Shown piece by piece: positions 45,311 through 45,817 of a stretch of DNA of 64,000 nt. The translations under genes were made by a program, and so were the position numbers. Origin of the DNA: Paracoccaceae bacterium. GTDB lineage: Bacteria; Pseudomonadota; Alphaproteobacteria; Rhodobacterales; Rhodobacteraceae. The stretch covers positions 124,001 through 188,000 of the forward strand of contig JAGRDY010000029.1 of the NCBI GenBank assembly GCA_020446815.1, in the 5' to 3' direction. The notes below the pieces were generated by a model that saw only the letters and a program-made list of their open reading frames with translations, searched no databases and was not told the DNA's origin. Positions within the stretch are counted from its first letter, which is position 1. Every line of letters begins with the position of its first letter.

Positions 45311-45482
45311 GGCCCCGGTCTTAGCGCGTTTCTCGGCCGCGGTGAATCGCAATTCACAGCGGCCGCGAAAGCGCCGTTGTCAGAAAGCCGCGTTCCACTG
45401 TTCGGCATCGAACCGGCCCTGGCTCATCACATGGCGGGCCGGTTCGGTGCCGCCGCCGGCTGGGCAGGGCGGTCCGGCCGCT

Positions 45483-45546
45483 GTCCCGACAACTGTCGGG
45501 ACGGATGCCCGACGCATACCCGACGCGCGCGGGACGGATGCCAGAC
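45483..45546. repeat. inverted repeat plus 33-bp direct repeat
   Basis: GTCCCGAC (45483-45490) and GTCGGGAC (45495-45502) are a perfect 8-bp dyad with a 4-base loop. GGGACGGATGCC occurs at 45498-45509 and again at 45531-45542, a 33-bp period continued by C/A-GACG. The function is unknown; it resembles a partly decayed extragenic repeat. Confidence 0.6.
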
Positions 45547-45590
45547 GTGGTTTTCGCGTCATCCGGAAACACAAAGGGGAAAACACAAAG

Positions 45591-45613
45591 GGCCACCCTT
45601 GATCAGGGCGGCC
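45591..45613 (-). terminator. intrinsic terminator of the small transcription unit
   Basis: Read on the minus strand, GGCCGCCCT pairs with AGGGTGGCC around a GATCA loop (one G-T pair, no bulge) and is followed by CTTTGTGTTTTCCCC, a T-rich tail. It lies about 85 bases after the stop of the 18-codon ORF and about 280 bases before arfB. Confidence 0.6.
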
Positions 45614-45643
45614 CTCCGAGATCTACGGAGATGGGCCAGTTAG

Positions 45644-45729
45644 GGTGTCGAAGATCGACAAGGCCCAGTCAGGGTTGCAAACCCTCGGGTTTGCCCTCAG
45701 ATCGCGGCCCCCCTGACTGTCCCGACACC
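45644..45729 (-). ncRNA. candidate structured RNA: three nested perfect stems
   Basis: On the minus strand: P1 GGTGTCG (45723-45729) with CGACACC (45644-45650); P2 CAGTCAGGG (45711-45719) with CCCTGACTG (45666-45674); P3 GCAAACC (45688-45694) with GGTTTGC (45677-45683) closed by CGAG. P1 and P2 use the coding bases of codons 9-15 of the 18-codon ORF, so ribosomes on that ORF would open them. A further 5-bp hairpin (CTCCG/CGGAG) follows. This arrangement is like a translation-controlled attenuator, but no known RNA family is recognised. Confidence 0.5.
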
Positions 45730-45753
45730 TCTCTCCAATATCACTCTCGACAC
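45697..45753 (-). CDS. candidate 18-aa leader peptide with full anti-16S Shine-Dalgarno
   Basis: A GTG-initiated ORF (MSRVILERGVGTVRGAAI). Its ribosome-binding site GAAAGGAGGTGATCCAG (45753-45769) is complementary over 17 bases to the 3' tail of 16S rRNA, the maximal Shine-Dalgarno, with AGGAGG seven bases from GTG. Codons include AGA twice, AGG, ATA and TTG, all rare in this GC-rich genome. The stop lies just before the P3 hairpin. Translation is strongly suggested by the site; function is inferred. Confidence 0.5.
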   Translation of the reverse strand: MSRVILERGVGTVRGAAI

Positions 45754-45769
45754 TGGATCACCTCCTTTC
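45753..45769 (-). promoter_or_regulatory. 17-nt perfect complement of the 16S rRNA 3' end
   Basis: The plus strand reads CTGGATCACCTCCTTTC, the conserved 3' tail of 16S rRNA; the minus-strand RNA is therefore its exact complement. Ordinary Shine-Dalgarno sites pair over 4 to 8 bases. The rRNA sequence is quoted from general knowledge of the conserved 16S tail. Confidence 0.7.
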
Positions 45770-45788
45770 GCTACGTTTCCGTTAAGCG

Positions 45789-45817
45789 AAGGCTGACATG
45801 GATTTTGCGTTTGTCAA
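45789..45817 (-). promoter_or_regulatory. candidate promoter of the small transcription unit
   Basis: A perfect minus-strand TTGACA (45812-45817) just beyond the transporter stop codon; the box 17 bases downstream (AGCCTT, 45789-45794) is a poor -10. A transcript from here would start about 15 bases before the extended Shine-Dalgarno. Confidence 0.3.

Follow-up and report, generated by a model that had tools for sequence, protein, structure and literature searches.

The described system closest to the element studied here is CC2171, a small RNA of Caulobacter held in Rfam as RF01867. Its likely source is Landt et al. 2008. At least one relative is transcribed: the Mesorhizobium huakuii RNA MH_s33, annotated as CC2171, is listed with a 215-nt RNA-seq product in a table of PMC5596092. 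We found no description of an ORF in CC2171 RNA in the literature searched, which comprised titles and abstract openings from a limited collection under a limited set of terms. Leader-peptide attenuators of the trp type are a second point of comparison. A third is given by the Rhizobiales anti-Shine-Dalgarno sRNAs SmelA075 and SmelA099, which carry CCUCCUCCC loops (PMC3927594).

An Rfam scan of the window (the whole stretch of 64,000 nt that was analysed) returned no match at the family cut-offs. The only significant match is to RF01867, over its full length, at 39.5 bits (E 3.7e-7; cut-off 75), and other families match at chance level only. When the Shine-Dalgarno (SD) block is left out (positions 45575-45750) the match drops to 13.9 bits (E 0.41). 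The element is the sole RF01867 match in the window genome. Of eight loci from outside the family, one scores 61.7 bits and the other seven, at 76.3-89.8 bits, pass the cut-off; two Rhodobacterales loci scored alongside them have 44.7 and 46 bits. At E <= 0.01, RF01867 matches 53 of 230 class genomes, 7 of them over the cut-off, and 53 of 61 sampled family genomes, none of them over the cut-off.

The element is probably an autonomous, mRNA-like small RNA that is translated and whose fold varies with ribosome loading, and the Rhodobacterales form of units that occur across the Alphaproteobacteria. CC2171 is, on our best reading, the recorded representative of these units. Comparative sequence evidence supports the promoter box, the start and stop codons, the ORF length, the fold, the terminator and the independence of any one neighbour; a function of the RNA in trans is inferred. 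An Rfam-listed sRNA that is non-coding on record, and to which the literature passages at hand assign no function, appears to be designed for translation: its start codon, stop codon and short ORF persist across lineages in which the peptide differs. This design offers a natural test case for RNAs that act via ribosome loading. The unit would also add an annotation to Rhodobacterales genomes, where it stays below the Rfam cut-off.

The element in the window and among its relatives

The features that a sequence-only reading of the window had listed (boxes, SD, ORF, stems and terminator) are all present in the window sequence where it placed them (Table 1). A consensus scan for promoters found no sigma-70-type site at the element. 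Folded in isolation, the terminator has a z of -5.25.

Table 1. Features of the element and genes next to it in the window
Feature	Positions	Strand	Remarks
Phytase-like gene (PF13449)		minus	first in order, then Vut_1, element, arfB
Vut_1 gene, yhhQ-like (PF02592)	46447-45824	minus	5' of the element
-35 box TTGACA	45817-45812	minus	the unit's own promoter-like signal; kept in Rhodobacterales loci
Likely -10 box CAGCCT, spacer 16 nt	45795-45790	minus	placed from the conserved block TTGACa.acacaaaAtctgTG.cA.ccT
GAAAGGAGGTGATCCAG, 17-nt complement of the 16S rRNA 3' tail	45769-45753	minus	
SD AGGAGG	45766-45761	minus	seven bases 5' of GTG
Start-codon hairpin P0, UCCAGUGU with AUAUUGGA	45757-45750 with 45741-45734	minus	
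ORF MSRVILERGVGTVRGAAI*	45753-45697	minus	18 codons and TGA, GTG start
Outer stem GGTGTCG/CGACACC, 7 bp	45729-45723 with 45650-45644	minus	
P1, UCGG with CUGG	45725-45722 with 45639-45636	minus	codons 10-11
P2, the 9-bp stem CAGTCAGGG/CCCTGACTG	45719-45711 with 45674-45666	minus	RNA CAGUCAGGG/CCCUGACUG; codons 12-15
Small hairpin GGG-CAAA-CCC	45696-45687	minus	directly 3' of the stop codon
Inner stem GCAAACC/GGTTTGC, 7 bp	45694-45688 with 45683-45677	minus	
Conserved 3' segment CUAACUGGCCCAUCUCC	45643-45627	minus	its final 7 bases, 45633-45627, can pair with the element's own SD
Intrinsic terminator	45618-45586	minus	hairpin and T-rich tail
arfB, RF-1-domain gene with SGPGGQ (PF00472)	45352-44891	minus	3' of the element

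The exact 16S tail is absent from the assembly of the window genome, where the sole match to the pattern is the element itself. The 17-nt complement was therefore checked on 16S genes of other contigs, and it is exact against those of one Phaeobacter and two Salipiger contigs. The element is not a fragment or artefact of 16S: the 16S complement continues with CAGCC, the element with CAGTG. Among the matches listed (116 in 115 loci), 93 adjoin a 16S signature; the remaining 23 were read singly, nine of them with GTG.

A DNA search with 221 bases recovers the element from the window genome, from every one of the 21 same-genus genomes and from two further genera, at 82-91% identity along some 210 nt, with shorter matches (E < 2e-4) in seven further family genomes. 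The 18-mer AAAGGAGGTGATCCAGTG departs from the 16S complement in the two final letters. An exact search finds it as a single copy in each of 85 of 198 family genomes and also in 11 of 240 class genomes; its reverse is absent from both sets.

For the family-wide comparison 111 Rhodobacterales loci, gathered from genome matches and named contigs, were read. The names Rhodobacterales and Rhizobiales rest on named contigs (for example Loktanella, Alloyangia, Bosea and Roseiarcus), whose placement in these orders we take as given. Two pairs of loci are identical over 150 nt, and the counts below compare relatives, which are non-independent samples, without a tree. From these loci 92 sequences were selected, omitting most same-genus copies, and 80 of the 92 were aligned; the other 12 have long insertions or uncertain 3' trimming (L151, L155, L163, L164, L166, L172, L190, L192, L193, L194, L195 and L208). 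The SD block and GTG served as the search pattern and are invariant in this alignment by construction. Hence their invariance in Rhodobacterales proves nothing, and it is the class-wide test that bears on them.

L156, whose genome (G238) also belongs to the family, has a different peptide and was excluded from the 111 loci: there AAAGGAGGTGATCCAGTG opens a 26-codon ORF (MSSE..VEQPLPLA), with neither Vut_1 nor arfB in the fetched stretch, and the peptide resembles the MSS..EQP group of the class (L289, L291 and L297). The extended SD also stands before other kinds of ORF, one for a 57-residue protein with a signal-like start in L180, one of 39 codons in L178, and one of 12 codons in L125, a Phycisphaerales contig.

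Reading frame and RNA fold

In 107 of the 111 loci codon 19 is the stop (TGA in 43, TAG in 42, TAA in 22); the four exceptions have 20 or 24 codons. Codons 2-18 are gap-free in every sequence of the 80-sequence alignment. When alignment columns were shuffled, peptide similarity in the true frame was matched by 28 of 500 shuffles (360 and 209 of 500 for the other two frames). Start, stop and length are thus kept more clearly than the peptide.

The ORF could still be the point of the element. It would then be a gene for a functional 18-residue peptide, and the RNA fold would merely tune its synthesis. The motif MSRxxLE[RK]GVGT recurs in Rhodobacterales, codon 2 varies among TCG, TCT and TCA yet encodes Ser in 74 of 79 distinct sequences, and the frame-0 score lies above the shuffle mean. 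However, that score is only borderline, codons 6, 7, 10 and 12 hardly vary even at the wobble base, and outside the family the peptide bodies diverge widely except for Met-Ser and a few lineage motifs. Several conserved codons of the ORF are also paired in the RNA. We consider a peptide gene of this kind unlikely.

The 206-nt RNA folds at a z of -3.5, and none of 200 shuffles folds as well. RNAalifold and a direct count of pairs in the 80-sequence alignment support four helices in the family: P0, P1, P2 and the hairpin behind the stop codon. Overall 95.5% of the cells are paired. Two-sided changes occur in 134 cells, compared to 40 in shuffles (none of 500 reaches the true value) and at most 21 in slid controls. 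Most of the covariation signal comes from P2, where six pairs were counted in the 80 sequences, with up to six pair types per position and two-sided changes in up to 41 sequences. P1 is paired in 97.2% of cells, and three of its four pairs show a two-sided change, each in one sequence. The post-stop hairpin is paired in all cells, with two-sided changes in two of three pairs. In P0 96.6% of cells are paired and four of eight pairs never vary; this helix counts as weak evidence because its 5' arm belonged to the search pattern.

The three nested stems of the sequence-only reading fare unevenly. Among the 24 nearest relatives (22 of the window's genus, the window among them, and two others) they jointly barely exceed shuffles: the covariation score is reached by 25 of 500 and the number of pair types by 440 of 500. 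The 9-bp stem, which is P2, covaries, and the outer 7-bp stem pairs in 94.8% of cells of these relatives with no two-sided change; the inner 7-bp stem, paired in 55.2% of cells, is not conserved. Both covariation and conservation are found among relatives, and comparison supports the small, structured transcription unit of that reading, with an ORF under selection.

The end of the conserved 3' segment has two possible partners. All seven of its pairs with GGAGGUG can form in 71 of the 80 sequences, which were trimmed to end at CTCC where it was found. The predicted minimum-free-energy fold of the window RNA uses the pairing of the 3' CAUCUCC with the SD; when the folded stretch excludes the SD, codons 6-8 become the partner of this segment. 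We scored SD complementarity downstream of the SD against dinucleotide shuffles, which it exceeds on average in both sets of loci. Over 135 nt the mean z is -1.55 for 92 Rhodobacterales loci (20 of the 92 below -2; reversed SD +0.18) and -0.47 for the window itself. Over 110 nt the 30 scorable loci of 31 from the class give a mean of -0.82 (4 of 30 below -2; reversed +0.19); this shorter span misses the 3' segment of many Rhodobacterales loci, whose mean is then -0.46, and the window scores +2.0. The signal is modest.

It is plausible that ribosomes on the ORF select between RNA folds, because codons 10-15 supply the 5' arms of P1 and P2 and because CAUCUCC can pair with either the SD or codons 6-8. 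The SD-closed fold and the codon-paired fold may then be alternative functional states. The unit would be transcribed from its own promoter, with a short leader of about 30 nt before the start codon, as a discrete RNA of about 190-210 nt whose 5' end would lie some 10-20 nt before AAAGGAGG. The extended SD, complementary to the whole 16S tail, would bind 30S subunits strongly. Binding and translation of the ORF would open the 5' half and melt the helices formed by its codons. Without a ribosome the 3' anti-SD-like segment would close on the SD. The RNA would thus exist in a ribosome-loaded and a closed form. An effect in trans could come from the exposed 3' segment (CUAACYGRCCC..CUCC) or from RNA stability, and the peptide is also a candidate.

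A more far-reaching version would make the whole class of units a sensor of free ribosomes. The 16S tail and an internal mimic of it (a CUGGAUC..CCUCC-like sequence in or after the ORF) would compete for one SD strand, and the ratio of open, translated RNA to closed RNA would be a readout of initiation capacity. Once freed, the 3' anti-SD segment would repress or spare target mRNAs. We hold this to be distinctly unlikely.

Neighbouring genes and transcription signals

Next to the element the genome is strongly conserved. In 109 of the 111 loci a Vut_1 gene of the same strand precedes the element. An arfB of this strand stands within 420 nt, and so counts as adjacent, in 87 loci; in 7 it lies farther off, also on this strand, and in 17 the fetched stretch has none. 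A purely trans role would not require such a neighbourhood, which counts against it.

The sequence-only reading had proposed a stalling-sensitive leader feeding back on arfB. In a leader-peptide attenuator of this gene, ribosome progress on the 18-codon ORF would decide on termination before arfB. The position of arfB in the 87 loci suits this, and the ORF codons do form the 5' arms of helices. The gap between the terminator hairpin and the inferred arfB ATG, measured in 91 of 94 loci with an arfB match, is at most 40 nt in 34 of the 91, with a minimum of 6 nt (about 276 nt in the window). Read-through could express arfB across so short a gap, which leaves little room for another promoter.

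However, no downstream gene is kept throughout. In 16 of the 24 loci that lack an adjacent arfB, the next gene-like ORF is convergent, as judged with a crude GC3 rule; 8 of these 16 belong to the window's genus and are related, and those of L011 and L147 rest on weak ORFs. Pfam domains were found in four of six tested proteins of convergent ORFs. Likewise, 13 loci outside the family have no arfB in the fetched stretches. Some arfB genes also carry signals of their own: in 17 of 93 loci TAnnnT precedes the arfB ATG by 12-13 nt, compared to 4 and 7 loci at control offsets, and an SD-like 4-mer precedes the start in only 9 of 93. The placement of this -10-like box and the scarcity of SD-like 4-mers suggest that some of the genomes have a leaderless arfB mRNA. 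On neighbour orientation, arfB upstream signals and the contexts outside the family, we reject arfB attenuation as the conserved function and consider an attenuator explanation of the element quite improbable. Single lineages may use it, and the short gap in the 34 loci speaks for read-through there. The independent small RNA, which the sequence-only reading had offered as its alternative, fits better than the feedback leader.

By eye, pairing of the 3' segment with the terminator arm as an antiterminator was inconsistent, and among the sequences inspected in this way no partner of the terminator arm was shared by all.

The TAnnnT box peaks exactly 12 nt before the arfB ATG (14 of 93 loci). 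Between terminator and arfB the window (45440-45590) also carries short iterated motifs, GGCATCCGTCCC/GCGTCGGG, and iterated motifs stand before arfB in L206, L210, L216, L221, L223, L224, L170, L028 and L191. L206 repeats GCGTATGG at a spacing of about 12 nt, L224 iterates GTATGG, L221 and L223 TTTGTACA, and L216 GTGCACC/GTACAC. The motif is genome-specific and the iteration itself recurrent; these are possibly operator-like sites 5' of arfB.

The element itself has signals at both ends. All six letters of TTGACA are found in 42 of 92 Rhodobacterales loci, compared to 2 of 273 windows inside the upstream gene; five or six letters are found in 70 of 92, compared to 57 of 273. In 50 of those 70 loci the box lies 48-50 nt before AAAGG. 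By a loose rule, a hairpin with a T-rich tail is present in 109 of the 111 loci. That the element is the 3' untranslated part of Vut_1, which mostly ends 55-115 nt before the SD in the 109 loci, is very improbable given its own -35 box, two loci with the element and no Vut_1 in the fetched stretch (L153 and L165), and 13 loci outside the family with no Vut_1 beside them.

Units across the class and comparison with known systems

The pattern AAAGGAGGTGATCNNNNNTC, with five bases left free, has 39 matches in 38 of 230 class genomes, and the reversed pattern has none. A start codon stands at one fixed place in all 39 matches (ATG 23, GTG 15, TTG 1). One class genome, G048, holds two copies, both with ATG. 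Of 30 fetched class loci 28 were read, the window and a locus from a same-family genome (L294) being set aside: in 27 the ORF closes at a length of 20-35 codons, and in one the contig ends after 16 codons. A terminator is present in 23 of the 28, compared to 18 of 140 random positions. CC2171-like loci have the SD, the start codon and a short ORF in 29 of 30 cases, one of the 29 being the window; the one missed, L261, comes from a genome (G262) that does show the pattern with ATG. Met-Ser begins 28 of the peptides, which otherwise diverge. Neighbours vary among the 13 loci outside the family.

The element and CC2171 share the 5' block GAAAGGAGGUGAUCCAGUGUC with SD and start codon and align over the full length. 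Both end in a terminator, mostly occur once per genome, and pair codons of the ORF with a segment immediately 5' of the terminator. They differ in that the CC2171 helix CAUUGUC/GACAAUG does not form in the element (gaps and non-pairs at those positions), that the element has 18 codons and the over-cut-off members read have 22-26, and that the neighbour genes are not the same. Since both the score, far lower still without the SD block, and the characteristic helix fail, we do not claim membership in CC2171 in the strict sense. A common origin is plausible because block, layout and copy number agree, and because of L155, which lies between the same neighbours as the element and whose ORF starts with MSH like those of CC2171.

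Attenuators of the trp type resemble the element in a short ORF with a strong SD, nested helices that include its codons, and a terminator. In contrast to them, the listed peptides of the element have no run of one regulatory codon, no downstream gene is kept in all relatives, and some arfB genes have promoter-like signals of their own. SmelA075 and SmelA099 have an anti-SD-like segment, as the element does. The element differs from them in that its segment can pair with its own SD and that it contains a conserved ORF.
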